From the NCBI RefSeq assembly GCF_015521605.1, contig NZ_WANV01000025.1, positions 1-41,870 on the forward strand: a stretch of 41,870 nucleotides of DNA. Direction: 5' to 3'. Of this stretch, positions 27,629 to 34,755 are shown piece by piece. Position numbers and translations under genes: made by a program. The notes below the pieces were generated by a model that saw only the letters and a program-made list of their open reading frames with translations, was not told where the DNA came from and ran no database searches. Source of the DNA: Thermococcus sp. GTDB taxonomy: Archaea; Methanobacteriota_B; Thermococci; Thermococcales; Thermococcaceae. How positions within the stretch are numbered: the first letter of the stretch is position 1; each line of letters starts with the position of its first letter.

Positions 27629-28666
27629 TCAGCCCAACACCACGATGGAGCCTGGGTCCTTAACCCTCAGGGCGAGTGCTTCACTCACAAGGAATGCAAC
27701 CTCCTCCCCTTCCGGACCGAGTTCCTTGAGGTCGGGCTCCTGGCCTATTACGATGTCGAGAACGGCTGGGGTGTTCGCGAACACCACTACCTTGTTCTCG
27801 TCCAGGCTCGGCGTTACGAATATTCCTCCGCGGAAAACCCCTTTGAGGACCTCAATCAGCATCTTCCCTCCCTGCTCGTGAACGCGGAGGAGCTTTGCGT
27901 ACCTCTTGGGGTTGATCACAAGGGCAAAGGGCCCAGAGGAGGACTCGCTGGCCATCTGCAGGGCCGTCATCAGGCTGTCGAGGGCGCCTTCAGTGGACTC
28001 CCAGTCTCCCAGGGGAGCGCTCTTTGAGCCGGCCGAGAGGAGTTCTCTTATAAGGAGAGCCTCCTCGTCCTTAACCAAGAGCTCCCCGGCCTTTACGGCA
28101 ACGGCCGGATCAAAGGAACCGTCGCTGAGCTCTCTCAGGCCAACGTAGAACTTCTTCGTCAGCAGGGGGATCGGCCTGTACTCCTGCCTTGCGACCCTGA
28201 CACCGTCCTTCTCCTCTATCACGTCCACCCTGTAGGACTGGAGGCCGAGCATCTTGGTTCTTGGGAGGGCGTTGTAGAGCACCCTGCTCCTCTCAACTGC
28301 TCCCAGGAACGCGTCCCTCAGAACTTTCATGTAGTCAGCGACCCCGGCCTCTGGATCGCCCGAAGAGAGCTCAGTCCTAATGCCCGTCATCTCCTCGACC
28401 TCTTCAAAACCGTCCTTGAGCTCCCCTACCTGCTCGGAGTCCAGGTGGAGGAGCAGTGCCATGAACTCGCCCACATGGGCCTTCTCTTCCCTAGCGACGT
28501 CCAGGAAGACACTCTTAAGCTTTTCGTCCTCGATAAATCGAGCGAACTGCTCGTAGAAGTTTATGGCATCGAGTTCTGCCTCAATGGCCCAGCGAAGGGC
28601 CTGGGCTATTTCCTCCTTGGATAGGGGTTTCTCCCGGGATATCGAAATGGGGTTCAGACCCAGCAT
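27629..28666 (-). CDS. Encapsulin shell protein with fused N-terminal ferritin-like domain
   Basis: This 345-residue protein has two parts. Residues 1 to about 100 form an encapsulated-ferritin domain with Glu31, Glu61 and His64 (E-E-K-A-H), the same spacing as the ferroxidase ligands of EncFtn. The rest is an HK97-fold encapsulin shell protein, recognisable by D-Y-M-K-V-L-R-D-A-F-L, V-E-R-S-R-V-L-Y-N-A, the central R-E-L-S-D-G region and the C-terminal L-V-S-E-A-L-A-L-R-V-K-D-P. The same fusion and length are known from the virus-like particle protein of Pyrococcus furiosus. It should build an iron-storing nanocompartment with the ferroxidase inside. ATG 28666 follows GGTGAT; TATA GTTATTTAGG lies near 28696-28706. 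Confidence 0.93.
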   Translation of the reverse strand: MLGLNPISISREKPLSKEEIAQALRWAIEAELDAINFYEQFARFIEDEKLKSVFLDVAREEKAHVGEFMALLLHLDSEQVGELKDGFEEVEEMTGIRTELSSGDPEAGVADYMKVLRDAFLGAVERSRVLYNALPRTKMLGLQSYRVDVIEEKDGVRVARQEYRPIPLLTKKFYVGLRELSDGSFDPAVAVKAGELLVKDEEALLIRELLSAGSKSAPLGDWESTEGALDSLMTALQMASESSSGPFALVINPKRYAKLLRVHEQGGKMLIEVLKGVFRGGIFVTPSLDENKVVVFANTPAVLDIVIGQEPDLKELGPEGEEVAFLVSEALALRVKDPGSIVVLG

Positions 28667-28734
28667 GGGATCACCACCATAAGGTCTCGTTCTTCCTAAA
28701 TAACCTTTTTCGCCAAAAAAATGTAGAGGGAAAA

Positions 28735-29286
28735 TCACTTCAGAAACTTCGAGACGTATGGACTTTCACCGGGCTTTCCGCGCCTGAAGTGGCCGCTCGG
28801 CTTGCCGGTGAGCAGTTCCTCAAACCAGGCCTCGTGCTCTATCTCCTCGTGGAGTATCGCCAGAGCGAGGTCATAGGTCCTCGGGTCTTTGCCCATCGTG
28901 TAGTTACATATCTCGGTGTAAACACCGACTGCACAGCGTTCTGCCTCAAGGAGAACCTTAAGGATGTTCTCGATGGTGGGCTCCTCCGGCAGATAAGCGT
29001 CGCGGCACCAGGCCATGTTTGCGAAGTCCCTTATGTCCCTGGGGAGGTCTCCGCCAAGTTCGTATATCCTCGGCACGAGGGCCTCGAAGTGGTTCCTGTC
29101 CTCTATCCTGGCGTCCTCAACTATCTCCTTTATTGCCTCCCCCTCGAGGCCTGCCGCGTAGTTCCTCAGAATCGTGTAGTAGTAATAGGTCGTAAACTCC
29201 GCAGCGGCTGCCCTCAGCAACATATCCAAAAGCTTTTCCACGTCTATTCCTGCCCTTTCAACCAACCTTCTGTTGTGTTCCGACAT
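28735..29286 (-). CDS. Dps-like protein (DPSL / thioferritin type)
   Basis: The 183-residue protein matches archaeal Dps-like proteins. Diiron ligand candidates are Glu30, E-D-R-N-H near residues 62-66, Glu117 and E-E-I-E-H near 147-151. Cys94 (A-W-C-R-D) and Cys118 (E-A-E-R-C) sit where Sulfolobus DPSL has its characteristic Cys pair; Cys127 is extra. Members form 12-subunit cages that use H2O2 to oxidise iron. ATG 29286 follows GGTGA. It is divergent from the Fur/PerR-like gene across a periodic operator, and upstream of the encapsulin gene, so the two iron stores are neighbours. Confidence 0.92.
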
Positions 29287-29312
29287 AGGTTTCACCAGAT
29301 TTTAGTTGTAAC

Positions 29313-29359
29313 TTCTACTTAATAAACTTTTCTATTTAGAAGTTATTTCTAATTAGAAA
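29313..29359. promoter_or_regulatory. Periodic TTCTA/TAGAA operators in a divergent promoter
   Basis: Three 12-bp elements start at 29313, 29330 and 29347, exactly 17 bp apart: TTCTACTTAATA (degenerate), TTCTATTTAGAA and TTCTAATTAGAA. The last lies inside the perfect palindrome TTTCTAATTAGAAA. TAACTTCTA (29309-29317) and TAGAAGTTA (29337-29345) also form a perfect 9-bp inverted repeat. The array overlaps the Dps-like TATA (TTTATTAAG on the minus strand, about 29318-29327) and abuts the regulator's TATA (CTTATAAAG, 29362-29370). It should repress both genes. Confidence 0.7.
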
Positions 29360-29390
29360 GACTTATAAAGTTCCCCGAGAATTGGGACAC

Positions 29391-29768
29391 ATGTGGAGGG
29401 AAAAAGCGGTAGAAAGACTCAAGAGGGGTGGCTACAAGCTCACACCCCAGAGGCTCAGGCTGATAGAGGTTCTCGATGAGCTCGGGAAGTCCCACCCATC
29501 GCTCACCGAGCTCCTGGAGGAGATAAGGAAGGAGTTCCCCACGATGAGCTTTTCGACGCTCTACTCCAACCTCCTGACCCTGAGGGAGCTCGGGTTAGTT
29601 GAGCTCTTCTCCCTCGAAGGTGAGACCAGGGTAGAGGTAAACACCGAGCCTCACGTGAACATCATAGAGGGGGAGAGGATAATCGACGTTAACGACCCGG
29701 AGATAATAGAGGCCATAAGGAGAAAAACGGGGAGAAGGGTTAAGCTCGTCAATGTGCTAGTCGAATAA
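29391..29768 (+). CDS. Fur/PerR-family transcriptional regulator without Cys
   Basis: The 125-residue protein has the Fur-family winged helix (GGYKLTPQRLRLIEVL, then M-S-F-S-T-L-Y-S-N-L-L-T-L) and a short dimerisation/metal domain (T-E-P-H-V-N-I-I, then R-I-I-D-V-N-D-P). His35 and His88 match PerR-type regulatory-site His residues, with Glu86, Asp99 and Asp102 as possible further ligands. There is no Cys, so the structural Cys4 zinc site of bacterial PerR/Fur is absent. ATG 29391 is about 25 bp after the TATA box, so the mRNA is probably leaderless; an upstream TTG start is unlikely. It probably controls the divergent Dps-like gene and itself. Confidence 0.87.
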   Translation: MWREKAVERLKRGGYKLTPQRLRLIEVLDELGKSHPSLTELLEEIRKEFPTMSFSTLYSNLLTLRELGLVELFSLEGETRVEVNTEPHVNIIEGERIIDVNDPEIIEAIRRKTGRRVKLVNVLVE

Positions 29769-29842: not shown

Positions 29843-30265
29843 CTAGTCGTACTGAGCCTTCAGCAGCTCGTAGTGGGCCTTTTCCACCTTCGCCAGCTCC
29901 TCGAAGATCCTCCTAACGCTCTCGTGTTCTGCTTCCTTCGCTGCTCTCTCGTAGAACTCCCAGGTGAGCTTCTCCTGTTCCATGCCGATCTTCACCGCAT
30001 CGACCTCGCTTAGGTTTTCCTCCTCGACCTTGACGAGGAGCCTGTCGAGGGCCTCCATGTCCACCGCGGGAAGCTCACACTTCTCCACCAGGGCCCCCGC
30101 GAACTTCTCCTCAAAGATATCCCAGTGCTCCGCCTCTTCCCCGGCCAGGAATAGGAACATCTTCTTTGCCCTCTCGTCGCTGGCCTTCTTTGCCAGCCTT
30201 ATGTAAAACTTCAGCTCGGCCTTTTCGACCTCAAGGGCAAGAGCAAGGGCTTCAAGTTCGTTCAT
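29843..30265 (-). CDS. Ferritin-like (erythrin-type) protein
   Basis: This 140-residue four-helix bundle has both diiron half-sites: V-E-K-A-E-L-K-F-Y with E-E-A-E-H, and E-Q-E-K-L-T-W-E-F-Y with K-V-E-K-A-H. No rubredoxin domain follows. It is shorter than the other ferritin-like proteins nearby and has one Cys, in V-E-K-C-E-L in the linker. ATG 30265 follows GGTGAT; a TATA (GTTATTAGG on the minus strand, about 30296-30305) is shared with, or back to back with, the acetyltransferase promoter. Confidence 0.83.
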   Translation of the reverse strand: MNELEALALALEVEKAELKFYIRLAKKASDERAKKMFLFLAGEEAEHWDIFEEKFAGALVEKCELPAVDMEALDRLLVKVEEENLSEVDAVKIGMEQEKLTWEFYERAAKEAEHESVRRIFEELAKVEKAHYELLKAQYD

Positions 30266-30320: not shown

Positions 30321-30848
30321 ATGGGGATTGAGAGGGTTGAAAGGCCGCTTGAACTGAAGGGAGAGCTTCTCGGCTTCGTTTTCCGTGTCTACCAGGGCAC
30401 CGGTGGGGCTTACCCGGCCCTTGAGTGGGTCGAGGAGAAGCCTTCAACGGACGACTTCGAGGGCTTCAGAAAGGTCTACGAGCCCTTCCTGGAGTTCAGA
30501 CTAGGGAAGGAGTTCGACGAGCTCTACGTCCTGAGAGAGGACGGGCGAATAATAGGTACGGTGGCGCTCGTCTACAACCTTGAAGGTAAGGACGTCTGGT
30601 GGGTGCCTGAGGAAATAAAAAACGAGAAGACCGGCCTCATCGAGTTTTTCATGGTCGATCCGTCTTACAAGGGCAAAGGCTACGGCTCGAAGCTCCTCGA
30701 GTTCGCGGTGGGAAGGCTAAAGGAGTTAGGCAAGGAAGCCTACGTGATAACCTTCCCGCATCTTGAGGCATATTCATATTATATGAAAAAGGGCTTCACC
30801 AAGGTAATGGACTACGGGGAGTTCGTCGTGCTGAAAAAAGAAAGCTAG
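30321..30848 (+). CDS. GNAT-family N-acetyltransferase
   Basis: This 175-residue protein has the GNAT core: a F-F-M-V-D-P-S-Y strand followed by the acetyl-CoA pyrophosphate loop KGKGYGSKLLEFA near residue 120, then Y-Y-M-K-K-G-F-T-K-V close to the end. The substrate is unknown. ATG 30321 follows GGTGG. The gene is divergent from the ferritin-like gene, and its 3' end overlaps the convergent b561-like gene by four bases. Confidence 0.85.
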   Translation: MGIERVERPLELKGELLGFVFRVYQGTGGAYPALEWVEEKPSTDDFEGFRKVYEPFLEFRLGKEFDELYVLREDGRIIGTVALVYNLEGKDVWWVPEEIKNEKTGLIEFFMVDPSYKGKGYGSKLLEFAVGRLKELGKEAYVITFPHLEAYSYYMKKGFTKVMDYGEFVVLKKES

Positions 30849-31198
30849 AGGACGTAGAGGTAGAGGGCGGCAAGTATCTGGAGGAAGAGGAGCAGGACCG
30901 CCGATAATGCAATCATTTTGTGCGTATTCCTTGTTAGTTTCCTCCCCCAAAACAGCCTTCCGCTCGCTGCGGCAAAGAGGACGTAGGCGTAGACGAAGAG
31001 CCCGAACCTGCCGTGGGCCGACGGTACGCCGACGACGGTGTAGAGCATGTAGGCAACCCCCGCCGTGAGCAGGCCCACCGCGGAGTAAACGAAGTAATGG
31101 TGAACCCGGCGATCGTGCTTTCTCGCGTAATAAATCCCAAAGAGCAAGAGAAGGAGCGCCGTAACCTGCACTATTGCGTGAACCTGGAAAGGCTCCAT
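30845..31198 (-). CDS. Four-helix membrane protein, cytochrome b561-like
   Basis: The 117-residue protein has four membrane helices with His residues placed as possible heme ligands: His7, His33/His34 (R-V-H-H-Y-F), His62 (S-A-H-G-R-F-G) and His93 (N-T-H-K-M). This resembles the b561 core that shuttles electrons across membranes, but heme binding is inferred. ATG 31198 follows GGGTGAT, five bases after the DOMON lipoprotein stop, so the two genes are one operon. In eukaryotes DOMON and b561 domains are often fused in one polypeptide, which supports a joint role here. Confidence 0.65.
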   Translation of the reverse strand: MEPFQVHAIVQVTALLLLLFGIYYARKHDRRVHHYFVYSAVGLLTAGVAYMLYTVVGVPSAHGRFGLFVYAYVLFAAASGRLFWGRKLTRNTHKMIALSAVLLLFLQILAALYLYVL

Positions 31199-31203
31199 TA
31201 AGA

Positions 31204-31833
31204 TCACCCGTCGAGCTTAAGCTCCCCGTAGCCCCTCGCTATGTTGTGCTTGGTCGTGAAGTCGTCAGCATCTGCCATCGCGAAGATGAACTTGACCTTC
31301 TGCCCGGGCGTGAAGGCCTTGTCGTACTGGTCGCCGGTGTTGAGCTTTCTCTTGAACTCTATCACCGTGTAGCCGTTCTCCTCCTTTCCGGCATACTCGA
31401 TTATGTCGCTGCTCCCACCGAGCTTCTCGTCGGGCGGGTGGGGCCCGTAGGTTCCGGTTGAGTAGGCATCGATCACAACGGCATTGCCTTCCTGAACCCA
31501 GCCGAAGACCATGTCGGCGTCTTTCATCTTGTCGGTGGGCTCGAAGCCTATGGCAACCCAGCCGGTCGTCTGCCCCTTAAGGGCCATGTAAAGATATTCA
31601 CCATCGTTCCTCCAGTAAACGACCAGCTTTCCACCCGCCAGGGAAAGCTGGTGGGCGTACTCATTTTCGCCTATCACACCGTCGGCCTTCCACTCCCCGA
31701 GCTGGGGCGGGGAAGCTGTGGAAGAAGGAGTCGTTTGAGAGGGTGAGCTCGTACCACCTCCCCCTGTGCAGGCGCTCAAAAATACAACCCCCACCAAGAG
31801 AAGGGCAACAATGCCAAAATTTTTCGGCTTCAT
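31204..31833 (-). CDS. DOMON-domain lipoprotein
   Basis: This 209-residue protein has a signal sequence with lipobox LSAC (Cys22) and a Ser/Thr/Pro linker. A DOMON beta-sandwich (about 50-205) follows, recognisable by Y-L-Y-M-A-L-K-G-Q-T-T-G-W-V-A-I-G-F, M-K-D-A-D-M-V-F-G-W-V and F-A-M-A-D-A-D-D. DOMON domains bind heme or sugars; heme use is suggested by the b561-like gene that follows. It should sit on the outer face of the membrane. ATG 31833 follows AGGTGAT; the TATA (GTTTAAATAG on the minus strand, about 31867-31876) faces the divergent secreted-repeat gene across TTGTACC repeats. Confidence 0.82.
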   Translation of the reverse strand: MKPKNFGIVALLLVGVVFLSACTGGGGTSSPSQTTPSSTASPPQLGEWKADGVIGENEYAHQLSLAGGKLVVYWRNDGEYLYMALKGQTTGWVAIGFEPTDKMKDADMVFGWVQEGNAVVIDAYSTGTYGPHPPDEKLGGSSDIIEYAGKEENGYTVIEFKRKLNTGDQYDKAFTPGQKVKFIFAMADADDFTTKHNIARGYGELKLDG

Positions 31834-31894
31834 GTAGTATCACCTAATAATTTTCCACCTTCATGCTATTTAAACCTTTTCATTTATGTAACAT

Positions 31895-31925
31895 TTGTAC
31901 CCAATTTGTACCCTATTTTTGTACC
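31895..31925. promoter_or_regulatory. Three TTGTACC repeats between divergent promoters
   Basis: TTGTACC occurs at 31895-31901, 31906-31912 and 31919-31925, between the TATA boxes of the DOMON lipoprotein gene (left) and the secreted-repeat gene (CTTTTATAG, about 31939-31947, right). Spacings are 11 and 13 bp. A single regulator could act on both transcripts; the winged-helix protein encoded at 33247 is a local candidate. Confidence 0.5.
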
Positions 31926-31988
31926 AATAATAAAAAATCCTTTTATAGTTTGGGGACACATTGTTACATGCATATGGAGATGTTAAGA

Positions 31989-33206
31989 ATGGACGTAAAA
32001 GTTTGGGGATTCCTTCTGGTGGGGCTCCTCATCGGAGCCCTCGTGGGGTACGGGCTCGCGCCAAAGGGTATGAGCCAGGAGGACTACAACGCCCTCCAGG
32101 GGCAGGTCAAGGAGCTTCAGGGGAAGGTAGGCCAGTATGAAAGCCAGATCAGTGACCTCAAGGGAAAGGTAAGCGACTACGAAAAGCAGCTCGGAGAGCT
32201 CAAAGGAAAGGTCTACACCGTCAACATAGCCTACAAGGAGGGCATAGGCTATTATCTAGTGGACAGGGACGGAAGGGCACTCTACTACTTCGCCAAGGAC
32301 GTGCCCAACTCAGGGGAAAGCGCCTGCTATGGGGACTGTGCCCAGAAGTGGCCCGTCTTCTATGAGGAAGAGCTCAACCTTCCGCCCGGGCTCAACAAGG
32401 ACGACTTCTCCGTTATAACACGCGACGACGGCAGCAAGCAGCTCACCTACAAGGGATGGCCGCTGTACTATTTCTTCAAGGACGAAAAGGCCGGAGATAC
32501 GAACGGTGAAGGCGTTAAGGGCGTTTGGTTCGTCATGAAGCCGGACTACACACTCATGATAGCTTACAAGGACGGTATAGGCACCTACTTCGTTGACCCG
32601 AAGGGCATGGCCCTCTACTACTTCGCGAAGGACGTGAATGGAACGAGCGTCTGTTACGGCGAATGCGCCCAGAAGTGGCCAGTGTTCGCTCCGGAAGAGG
32701 TCTCCGCCCCCTCAACACTCGACCCGAGCGACTTCAGCTACATCACGAGGGAAGACGACACCAAACAGCTCGCCTACAAGGGATGGCCACTCTACTACTT
32801 CTTCAAGGACGAGAAGGCAGGGGACACCAACGGAGAGGACGTCAAGCACGTCTGGTACGTTATGAGGGACTACGACGTTATGATCGCCTACCAGCCCAGC
32901 GTGGGGACTTACCTCGTTGATGATATGGGAATGACCCTCTACTACTTCGTCAAGGATTCGAACGGTACCAGTGTATGCTACGGCGAATGCGCCCAGAAAT
33001 GGCCGGTGTTCTACCGCGAGAACCCTGTGGTGCCTTCGGTGATAGCGAACGACTTCGGCGAGATAACGAGGGACGACGGGAGCAAGCAGACGACCTTCAG
33101 GGGCTATCCGCTGTACTACTTCTTCAAGGACGGGAAGAGGGGAGACATAAACGGCCAGGGTGTCAAGAACGTGTGGTTCGTGGTCAACCCCTTCAACTTC
33201 CCGTGA
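31989..33206 (+). CDS. Membrane-anchored protein with three secreted-repeat (PF03640-like) domains
   Basis: From ATG 31989 the protein has 405 residues: a membrane anchor (about 5-23), a coiled coil rich in G-K-V and Q/E/K (about 30-75), and three repeats of about 100 residues. Each repeat has the order Y-x-V-D, L-Y-Y-F, C-Y-G-[DE]-C-A-Q-K-W-P-V-F, T-R-[ED]-D, and G-[WY]-P-L-Y-Y-F-F-K-D with G-D-x-N-G. Each keeps one C-x3-C pair, probably a disulfide. The family is seen as surface lipoproteins next to redox genes in bacteria, function unsettled. Upstream ATGs (31968, 31974, 31980) are possible but 31989 fits the TATA position and membrane start best. Confidence 0.83.
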   Translation: MDVKVWGFLLVGLLIGALVGYGLAPKGMSQEDYNALQGQVKELQGKVGQYESQISDLKGKVSDYEKQLGELKGKVYTVNIAYKEGIGYYLVDRDGRALYYFAKDVPNSGESACYGDCAQKWPVFYEEELNLPPGLNKDDFSVITRDDGSKQLTYKGWPLYYFFKDEKAGDTNGEGVKGVWFVMKPDYTLMIAYKDGIGTYFVDPKGMALYYFAKDVNGTSVCYGECAQKWPVFAPEEVSAPSTLDPSDFSYITREDDTKQLAYKGWPLYYFFKDEKAGDTNGEDVKHVWYVMRDYDVMIAYQPSVGTYLVDDMGMTLYYFVKDSNGTSVCYGECAQKWPVFYRENPVVPSVIANDFGEITRDDGSKQTTFRGYPLYYFFKDGKRGDINGQGVKNVWFVVNPFNFP

Positions 33207-33208
33207 CC

Positions 33209-33222
33209 CCCTTTAATTTTTT
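33209..33222 (+). terminator. T-rich stretch after the secreted-repeat gene
   Basis: CCCCCTTTAATTTTTTAAGG begins just after the stop. It may end the transcript, or the TTTTTTAAGG may be the TATA box of the next gene. Confidence 0.35.
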
Positions 33223-33246
33223 AAGGATTAAGGACAACCCCCAATC

Positions 33247-33537
33247 ATGGACAGAAAGCTCAGGAACGTCCTTCTCTGGCTACTGGTCGGCTCGAAGGGC
33301 GGAAAGACGAGGGTCAAAATCCTCAAGCTAGTCCGAGAGAGGCCCTCTAACGTGCACCAGCTCGCTAAGGAACTCAACCTTAACTACCGCACGGTAAAAT
33401 ACCACCTCGAACTCATGCTCGAGCACGGAATCGTTGAAAGGGTTGGCGAGGACTACGGGGCGATCTACGTGCTCTCCGAGGAAGTTGAGAAAAACTGGAA
33501 TGAAATAGAAAGCATAATCGGGGTGAACGGAAGGTGA
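33247..33537 (+). CDS. Winged-helix (ArsR-like) transcriptional regulator
   Basis: This 96-residue protein has a compact winged helix: K-T-R-V-K-I-L-K-L-V, V-H-Q-L-A-K-E-L-N-L-N-Y as the helix-turn-helix, R-T-V-K-Y-H-L-E-L-M as recognition helix, and a wing ending Y-V-L-S. A short charged C-terminus follows. No metal-binding Cys cluster is present. It begins a four-gene run with overlapping ends (33247-34755) and is the obvious candidate to control that cluster. ATG 33247 appears to have little or no leader. Confidence 0.82.
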   Translation: MDRKLRNVLLWLLVGSKGGKTRVKILKLVRERPSNVHQLAKELNLNYRTVKYHLELMLEHGIVERVGEDYGAIYVLSEEVEKNWNEIESIIGVNGR

Positions 33538-33815
33538 TGGGGATTTACTGGCAAATTAACCTGCTCATAGTGCTAACTGAGTTAATCCTGGCCCTCATGC
33601 TCCTCAGAAACTATCTGGAGATGAAGGACACGAAACTCGGGAAGAAGCTCTTCGGGGTGTCCCTGGTCTTCGTGATCCAGAGCCTGCTCGCGATAGTTTT
33701 CTACGTCCGCTGGGCAGGTATGGGAATGGGGAAGGAGGTTGCGGGGCCGCTCCTCCTGCTCTCGCTGAGTGGCCTTTTTGGGGTCAGTCTGCTGTACTCA
33801 ATTTCGAGGATGTGA
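33537..33815 (+). CDS. Small three-helix membrane protein
   Basis: The 92-residue product has three hydrophobic helices, with a charged loop after the first (E-M-K-D-T-K-L-G-K-K) and a Met/Gly-rich loop (R-W-A-G-M-G-M-G-K-E) after the second. I do not recognise a family. ATG 33537 overlaps the regulator's stop (GTGATG) and its own stop overlaps the next start, so it is cotranscribed with both. It could be a signal partner of the winged-helix protein or an accessory to the redox pair that follows. Confidence 0.6.
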   Translation: MGIYWQINLLIVLTELILALMLLRNYLEMKDTKLGKKLFGVSLVFVIQSLLAIVFYVRWAGMGMGKEVAGPLLLLSLSGLFGVSLLYSISRM

Positions 33816-34402
33816 TTGGTTTGAGAAAAGAAATATTTGCCCTTTCCATACTTCTCCTGCTGGTCGCCACCACGTACTGGCTCGGCGGCGGCAAAAACAC
33901 AACGCAGGTGCCGAAAGAACAGCTCTCCAGCGGGCAGTCTGGAGTTATCCAGATCACCGGACTCGTCGAGAGGCCCTACAACATAACCTACGAGGAGCTC
34001 AGGAAGTTCCCCTCCAGGGAGGTGGAGTCGCCCCTCTACTGCGTGAGCCAGCCCGACCAGGTCAGGAAGAACGGGACGTGGAAGGGAGTCCCGTTAAAGG
34101 CGATTCTTGAACTGGCAAGGCCCAGGGGCGGGGCGTACAAGGTGGCCCTCTACGCGAGCGACGGTTTTACAACGGACTTCTATCTCGACGCTGTGATGGC
34201 GGACGAGGACATCATCATAGCCTACGAGTTCAACGGTGAGCCGATAACTCCCCGAATAGTCGCCCCTGGCCGGTGGGGTTACAAGTGGATCAAGTACCTG
34301 ACGAGGATAGAGCTTGTAAGCTACGACTTCAAGGGCACGTGGGAGAGCGCGGGTTATCCCGACGACGCGCTGATACTGGACGGCTCTTCACCGGGAAGGT
34401 GA
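33812..34402 (+). CDS. Sulfite-oxidase-fold molybdopterin-binding protein, membrane-anchored
   Basis: This 196-residue protein has an N-terminal membrane anchor (about 8-25) and a single oxidoreductase molybdopterin-type domain. Landmarks are V-I-Q-I-T-G-L-V-E-R-P, the Cys in S-P-L-Y-C-V-S-Q as candidate metal ligand, T-W-K-G-V-P-L-K-A-I-L, S-D-G-F-T-T-D, and G-R-W-G-Y-K-W-I-K-Y-L. It resembles the catalytic part of MsrP/YedY-type enzymes without the dimer domain. The following gene encodes a cytochrome-b-like membrane protein, matching the MsrP-MsrQ layout. The metal would be W or Mo. Start: GTG 33812 (GTGA overlap) or TTG 33821. Confidence 0.8.
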   Translation: MIGLRKEIFALSILLLLVATTYWLGGGKNTTQVPKEQLSSGQSGVIQITGLVERPYNITYEELRKFPSREVESPLYCVSQPDQVRKNGTWKGVPLKAILELARPRGGAYKVALYASDGFTTDFYLDAVMADEDIIIAYEFNGEPITPRIVAPGRWGYKWIKYLTRIELVSYDFKGTWESAGYPDDALILDGSSPGR

Positions 34403-34407
34403 GCGCC

Positions 34408-34755
34408 TTGAGGACGAAAACTGCACTGGCGATAGTGGAGTGGACGTCGCTTCCGCTCCTCCTCCTGGCTGGACTGCTGGTCATCAGCGGCTACGGGCTG
34501 ACGAGTGAGGCGGCGAGAAGCGCATCACTCGGCCTGCTGACCTTCTCCCGCTCCCAGGCGATACACCTGAGCAGGGTCGTAAAACTCGGCTTCGTTTTCC
34601 TTTTACTCCTCCACACCTACGCCGGGACGGGGGTGCTGGCAAAGAAGGTGAAGAAGAGCGGCCACCAAGGGCTCGCGGCTATTATGGAGTATTCTGTGCT
34701 GGCGTTTCTGCTTTACGTCGGCTGGATAGCGCTGAACGGGGAGTTCGGAGGATAA
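34408..34755 (+). CDS. Cytochrome-b-like membrane protein paired with the molybdopterin protein
   Basis: From TTG 34408, behind GGTGAGCGCC, the product has 115 residues and three membrane helices. His53 (A-I-H-L-S-R-V-V-K) and His69 (L-L-L-H-T-Y-A-G) sit at opposite ends of one helix, as in b-type cytochromes, and His85 follows in the loop. It would pass electrons to or from the molybdopterin domain outside the membrane. The family is not certain; the genomic pairing is the main support. Confidence 0.62.
   Translation: MRTKTALAIVEWTSLPLLLLAGLLVISGYGLTSEAARSASLGLLTFSRSQAIHLSRVVKLGFVFLLLLHTYAGTGVLAKKVKKSGHQGLAAIMEYSVLAFLLYVGWIALNGEFGG

Follow-up and report, generated by a model that had tools for sequence, protein, structure and literature searches.

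Separable redox modules at an oxidative-stress island of Thermococcus, with a possible MsrPQ-like surface repair pair

What do seven genes for a regulator and for predicted membrane and extracytoplasmic proteins do side by side in a Thermococcus? We addressed this question for a stretch of 41,870 nucleotides from Thermococcus sp. (contig NZ_WANV01000025.1; in the following called the window), which belongs to a genome of 2.03 Mb on 42 contigs. A preliminary description had proposed seven open reading frames (ORFs), here called A to G, in two divergent transcripts, which together could move electrons between the membrane and the outer surface or repair oxidised surface proteins. All seven ORFs are present where they had been placed:

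A, 30845..31207, minus strand: four-helix membrane protein with conserved H10, H36, H37, H65 and H96, probably a b561-like heme relay; Pfam matches below the cut-offs only
B, 31204..31833, minus strand: DOMON lipoprotein, probably carrying heme b; Met103 and His196 invariant (20/20 rows)
Divergent promoter region, 31886..31970, no strand: candidate operator with GTAAC/GTACC boxes at 31888, 31897, 31908 and 31921 and GTTAC at 31963
C, 31974..33206, plus strand: membrane-anchored coiled coil with three PF03640 secreted repeats (SCO0930 family)
D, 33247..33537, plus strand: ArsR-type winged-helix regulator
E, 33534..33815, plus strand: small membrane protein with no histidine and no family match
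F, 33812..34402, plus strand: single-domain protein of the sulfite-oxidase fold (PF00174) with an N-terminal anchor; Cys77 invariant (10/10 rows)
G, 34399..34755, plus strand: small membrane protein, putative b561/DUF4405-type partner of F; invariant H53 and H69 (numbered from the TTG at 34408)

The divergent layout was borne out. A and B overlap by 4 bp on the minus strand, and C to G lie on the plus strand with overlaps of 4 bp between D and E, E and F, and F and G; two divergent transcription units are therefore likely. Most of the earlier gene identities were confirmed as well, namely a DOMON lipoprotein for B (PF03351, 1e-29, 103.7 bits against a gathering score of 32.7; lipobox at Cys22), a triple secreted-repeat protein for C (six PF03640 stretches making up three repeats, 1.4e-83), a winged helix for D (ArsR-type match, 4e-11), a small membrane protein without assigned family for E, and the sulfite-oxidase fold for F (PF00174, 1.7e-25).

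The genes are not a fixed set. We surveyed 101 genomes, 61 of them from the genus of the window, and found F in 22, A in 12 and C in 6 of these 61; weak F matches in two genomes (G041 and G045, ~1e-7, other PF00174 proteins) were left out of the count. G accompanies F in all 22 F-bearing genomes of the genus, while 13 of the 22 have F-G but no A, and C was found in just 6 of the 101 genomes. The modules come apart in several ways: A-B lies divergent to F-G with C-E missing (G023, G043), A-B is present without F (G045, G055), or C-G is kept and A-B is broken or missing (G007, G028, G031). G007 and G050 carry an interrupted B, and one stop is present in the G043 match. A-B is dispensable and often decayed. 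We therefore recognize two or three modules within one island and rejected the single seven-gene pathway that had been proposed. Nor is the combination peculiar to this archaeon, as DOMON, a small two-histidine protein, F and G also occur together in Chloroflexota. At least three genomes (G027, G010 and G057) seem to have a damaged F, split or truncated in the respective loci L092, L098 and L108, where G and the neighbors remain; the pair thus appears to be under loss in some lineages. Other PF00174-like proteins of ~280 and ~540 amino acids in L109 (G041) and L110 (G045) lie beside a membrane protein with 8–9 helices and an ATP-binding cassette (ABC) ATPase and belong to a different system.

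The most constant unit is hence F-G, and its surroundings in other lineages point to methionine sulfoxide reductases (Msr). A scan of genome contigs yielded 214 F relatives, of which the best 80 were analyzed. These 80 loci span Methanomicrobiales, Thermoplasmatales, Bathyarchaeota, several DPANN lineages, Patescibacteria and Chloroflexota, and the closest named relatives of F are Thermococcus records. Ten msrB and nine msrA genes were detected in them. In eight of the ten cases msrB is encoded on the strand of F and no more than 250 bp from it, against a mean of 0.33 and a maximum of 4 in 20,000 random placements; six of the nine msrA genes are found within 750 bp. One locus reads msrA, an MsrB::F fusion, G (L181), and another a DUF4405::F fusion, msrB, msrA and a rubrerythrin-like gene (L171); a second DUF4405::F fusion was found in L137.

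Because the Msr genes had first been sought after their sighting in L181 and L171, we also made an unselected count of all Pfam families in genes within two positions of F. The 246 near genes, compiled without seven Thermococcus loci and without ORFs shorter than 70 or longer than 600 amino acids, were compared with 125 distant genes drawn from 589. DUF4405 (6), PF01292 (3+5), MsrB (5), MsrA (2+2) and rubredoxin (3) stood out near F, and the first four were outside the 25 commonest families of the distant genes. In a tree of F, calculated without two short domain matches (L150, L154), the msr label takes 7 changes for 7 rows and is thus scattered, not confined to one clade. In five Methanomicrobiales-type loci (L138, L139, L151, L183, L186), F is followed by a protein of recurring size, ~450–460 amino acids, probably an AMP-binding match.

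Within the genus, F-G is usually housed in an oxidative-stress island, which in the window lies upstream of the seven genes:

Rubrerythrin-like protein, 29843..30265, minus strand: PF02915, 2e-14
Fur/PerR-type regulator, 29382..29768, plus strand: PF01475, 4.6e-22
Archaeal Dps, 28735..29295, minus strand: NF009990, 5.6e-95, and NF040955, 5.6e-92
Ferritin-like::encapsulin protein, 27629..28738, minus strand: PF04454 (Linocin_M18), 1.5e-17, and PF02915, 8e-7

A GNAT enzyme is also encoded upstream of the seven genes and an ABC transporter downstream. In L095 and L096 the order is dps, fur, rubrerythrin, gnat, F, G and ABC genes; in L101 (G039) and L102 (G058) a Fur gene immediately precedes F-G on the same strand, and the island of L174 contains a peroxiredoxin (PF00578). 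The ferritin-like domain at 27629-28738 is fused to an encapsulin shell; in L032, L033, L044 and L045, the matches at this site are limited to the ferritin-like part of ~100 amino acids, and the state of the fusion, or the presence of the shell, seems to vary among relatives. The intergenic region between dps and fur (29296-29381) holds an AT-rich sequence resembling an inverted repeat, TTCTATTTAGAAGTTATTTCTAATTAGAAA, possibly a Fur/PerR box.

Because relatives of F adjoin, or are fused with, msrB and msrA, and because F-G of the genus sits in the Dps/PerR/rubrerythrin island, we suggest that F-G may repair surface proteins. The earlier idea of surface repair is thus supported for this pair, but not for one system of seven genes.

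Is F itself compatible with such a role? The protein is 196 amino acids long, with PF00174 as its sole domain and an N-terminal anchor. Cys77 is invariant in the ten aligned rows; in this fold, a cysteine of this type is the ligand of the pterin metal. A twin arginine is absent from these rows and present in 1 of 76 rows of the wider F set, in which 29 of the 76 have a lipobox. MoaA is present in the genome of the window and in 46 of the 49 genomes of the genus searched. Among solved structures (PDB), SorA scored best (3.5e-12) and YedY/MsrP weaker (9e-5), and the curated models gave the same order, with SorA at 1.1e-13 (NCBIfam), SoxC at 1e-10 and MsrP at 5e-8. This ranking would suit an extracytoplasmic dehydrogenase for sulfite or another sulfur compound that passes electrons inward via G, an oxidase serving detoxification or energy. 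We consider such a role unlikely, as the scores to SorA, SoxC and MsrP are all far below the curated cut-offs (SorA 50.8 of 600 bits, SoxC 41.1 of 420, SorT 18.8 of 570; MsrP model PRK05363 32.6 of 207), F consists of PF00174 without a second domain, and it is linked or fused to MsrB and MsrA and linked to peroxide-defense genes. With SorA, SorT and SoxC, F shares the PF00174 fold and the cysteine, but differs in being a single domain below every curated cut-off. Judged by its sequence, F is neither a canonical sulfite oxidase nor an MsrP exported by the twin-arginine translocation (Tat) pathway.

G had been called cytochrome-b-like, which is invisible from the window protein alone but emerges from its family of 28 members (20–74% identity to the G of the window). 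One glycine, H53 and H69 are invariant in all 28. When scanned singly (E ≤ 0.1), 22 of the 28 matched PF01292 (cytochrome b561; best 2.7e-8) and 16 matched DUF4405; the member in the window had no PF01292 match, and PF01794, the MsrQ-type ferric-reductase-like domain, is not listed among the matches of the 28. Compared with a small DUF4405 profile, G gave a weak alignment (24% probability), and the label DUF4405 was dropped for this reason. DUF4405 proteins and the small FezC are described in a published study as binding heme b in vitro, with FezC modeled as a homodimer around the heme (PMC11334425). G resembles these proteins in being a small membrane protein with paired histidines; unlike there, its partner is F and not a flavinylated protein or a ferrosome, and the profiles align weakly. 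We infer that G may likewise dimerize, with heme held between its helices.

A and B could form a second electron route. In B, Met103 and His196 are kept in every row, including those from Chloroflexota, and Met/His is a known axial heme pair of DOMON cytochromes. In A, all 8 intact rows (of 9 aligned) retain the histidines H10, H36, H37, H65 and H96, and each of the four predicted helices has one histidine site at its start; the sites would then pair up, one pair at either face of the membrane, an arrangement that fits a two-heme relay. The earlier label b561-like for A hence draws on its four predicted helices and conserved histidines, but Pfam alone lends it no support (DUF420 5.5e-4 and Cytochrom_B561 0.035, both sub-cut-off; PF03188 14.8 bits against a gathering score of 23). 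A structure model of A showed four helices at a modest mean predicted local distance difference test (pLDDT) value of 73.7. It had no Foldseek match at E ≤ 0.001, and VIA-align listed generic helical bundles; the matches listed did not include cytochrome b561, which is no argument against that fold.

Two observations tie A-B to F-G. F occurs in 9 of the 12 A-bearing but in 13 of the 49 A-less genomes of the genus (Fisher p 0.005, kinship not corrected). In Chloroflexota (L161, L189), genes for a DOMON lipoprotein, a small protein with two histidines, F and G follow in a row, in L161 with an Fe/Mn superoxide dismutase and a ferritin-like protein upstream, and these rows therefore offer independent support for DOMON acting with F-G. 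Movement of electrons between the membrane and the outer surface by A-B and G is plausible from these sequences, and that A-B serves as an optional outward relay is, in our view, about as likely as not, similar to our estimate for F-G given below.

Alternatively, A-B together with C would export electrons to the surface and there reduce Fe(III), oxygen or peroxide, with F-G a separate neighbor. Plant and animal CYBDOM proteins, in which DOMON and cytochrome b561 are combined, reportedly reduce ferric iron (PMC10784544, PMC10784552), and B with its Met/His pair beside the four-helix, multi-histidine A would amount to a two-gene version of these ferric reductases. As there, an outside DOMON heme domain would be coupled to a membrane protein of diheme type; unlike there, A-B are two separate genes, and A has four helices and stays below every Pfam cut-off. 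The iron-storage genes among the neighbors (Dps, ferritin-like::encapsulin) and the two genomes with A-B and no F fit this alternative, whereas the tracking of F by A and the Chloroflexota rows with DOMON in line with F-G do not. We regard it as a real possibility, though the less probable side. A second, diverged group of DOMON lipoproteins in the genus (L049, L051, L052, L053, L055 and similar) has the same Met and His in the aligned rows; it adjoins glycine dehydrogenase subunits, HAD or transport genes, with neither A nor F, a different setting.

Where would the heme come from? HemB was found in none of the 61 genomes of the genus, while 11 of the 14 control genomes were positive, and none of 71 genomes had an AhbD match above the strict cut-off (5e-17 was the best value in the genome of the window). 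A published heme-gene table has no heme genes for four Thermococcus and three Pyrococcus (PMC3004389). TatC was likewise absent from the 49 genomes of the genus searched. The predicted heme ligands of A, B and G are conserved despite the absence of HemB, hence either heme is taken up or these sites bind something else. The proteins might bind another metal, or retain relic ligands from heme-using donors in a decaying cassette. The missing HemB and AhbD, the empty Thermococcus and Pyrococcus rows of that table, and the broken copies of B, A or F in several genomes would agree with this. Invariant ligand positions in intact copies of unrelated families would, however, be unexpected without heme, and Met/His is a pair known from DOMON cytochromes, which makes the absence of heme improbable to us. 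A multiheme export chain was rejected, as no multiheme protein was met among the genes examined.

C, D and E make up an accessory cassette, and its promoter holds a conserved element. C matched NF040526 (SCO0930 lipoprotein) with 377 bits against a cut-off of 275 (5.3e-113), had no convincing relative among solved structures, and gave a poor structure prediction from three sequences (mean pLDDT 43.8). Between B and C, the GTAAC/GTACC boxes are spaced by 9, 11 and 13 bp; 6 genomes share this stretch ahead of C, and the double box has a single occurrence in the genome. D would be the natural choice for a protein that binds this promoter.

We thus propose the following explanation. It starts from what is observed, namely gene content, conservation, linkage, the lack of HemB and TatC and the occurrence of MoaA, whereas its cofactors, direction of electron flow, substrate and heme uptake we infer. 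The core F-G would be an extracytoplasmic oxidoreductase pair working like bacterial MsrPQ. F, with a tungsto- or molybdopterin, would be exported by the general secretion (Sec) pathway, stay anchored and act on surface proteins, reducing their oxidized methionines or similar S-oxides. G would be a minimal b561/DUF4405-type cytochrome, probably a dimer with heme between its paired histidines, and the electron donor to F. The pair would be part of the PerR/Dps/rubrerythrin/encapsulin stress locus. A-B may provide an optional second electron route, from A as a four-helix, probably two-heme relay to B as a DOMON b-type cytochrome lipoprotein outside; the secreted-repeat protein C, the regulator D, which would act on the shared promoter, and E would be accessory. 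Heme would be taken up from the environment. We consider the case for F-G as a repair pair of the MsrPQ kind about evenly balanced; the explanation as a whole, with optional route and cassette, falls a shade short of that.

Several results weigh against this explanation. F scores better to SorA and SoxC than to MsrP, and A-B is broken in several genomes. By a strict rule, a G homolog lies directly downstream of F in 28 of the 80 loci, a count that misses three Thermococcus loci with extended ORF starts (L120-L122) and one on the other strand (L141) and that may include a chance match (L166). The lack of HemB and TatC is awkward both for heme and for export of a folded pterin enzyme. In the F tree, a long branch (0.87) sets the Thermococcus clade apart from the rows linked to msr, so the transfer of function to the window goes by inference, aided by the stress-island setting. 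Finally, MsrA and F occur independently of each other in the genus (8/17 against 14/44, p 0.37); complementarity of the two was considered and dropped, there being no sign of replacement.

How does F-G relate to known systems? MsrPQ (YedYZ) is the periplasmic methionine sulfoxide reductase of Gram-negative bacteria. The likeness lies in a catalytic protein of the sulfite-oxidase fold with an invariant cysteine, in a gene adjoining that of a heme-type membrane partner, and in the ties to methionine sulfoxide reductases and oxidative stress. In contrast, F has no Tat signal and stays far under the cut-off of the MsrP model, its host has neither HemB nor TatC, and MsrQ is missing, its place being taken by G of ~115 amino acids with its PF01292/DUF4405 matches. 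Because the Tat, MsrQ and model features fail, we do not file F-G as MsrPQ, even though we see an approximately even chance that it works alike. For acidophilic archaea, MsrP-like candidates of the sulfite-oxidase family without MsrQ are mentioned in a published account, with the electron donor reported as unknown (PMC8773360). By comparison with these proteins, a recurrent donor candidate, G or DUF4405, can be named here from linkage and fusion. Among the open-licence papers that our searches listed, none connects DOMON, DUF4405 or b561 partners with archaeal MsrP in its title or abstract.

The locus raises the questions of how heme-type sites are equipped without heme synthesis and by what route a pterin enzyme can leave the cell when Tat is missing. 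A far-reaching answer, which we consider rather unlikely as a whole, would be that Thermococcus, apparently without heme synthesis, uses scavenged heme to operate an extracytoplasmic chain of cytochromes, in which A-B and G feed a Sec-exported, pterin-loaded F, and that F with G or DUF4405 represents a widespread archaeal and Patescibacterial surface repair system distinct from MsrPQ, with the pterin loaded without Tat. Most hyperthermophiles, according to a review of archaeal methionine sulfoxide reductases, have no MsrA/B and may use an undiscovered enzyme (PMC6211008). F, given its linkage to Msr genes and to G or DUF4405, fusions included, is a concrete candidate for this missing hyperthermophile enzyme, as is its partner for the electron source of MsrP-like proteins.

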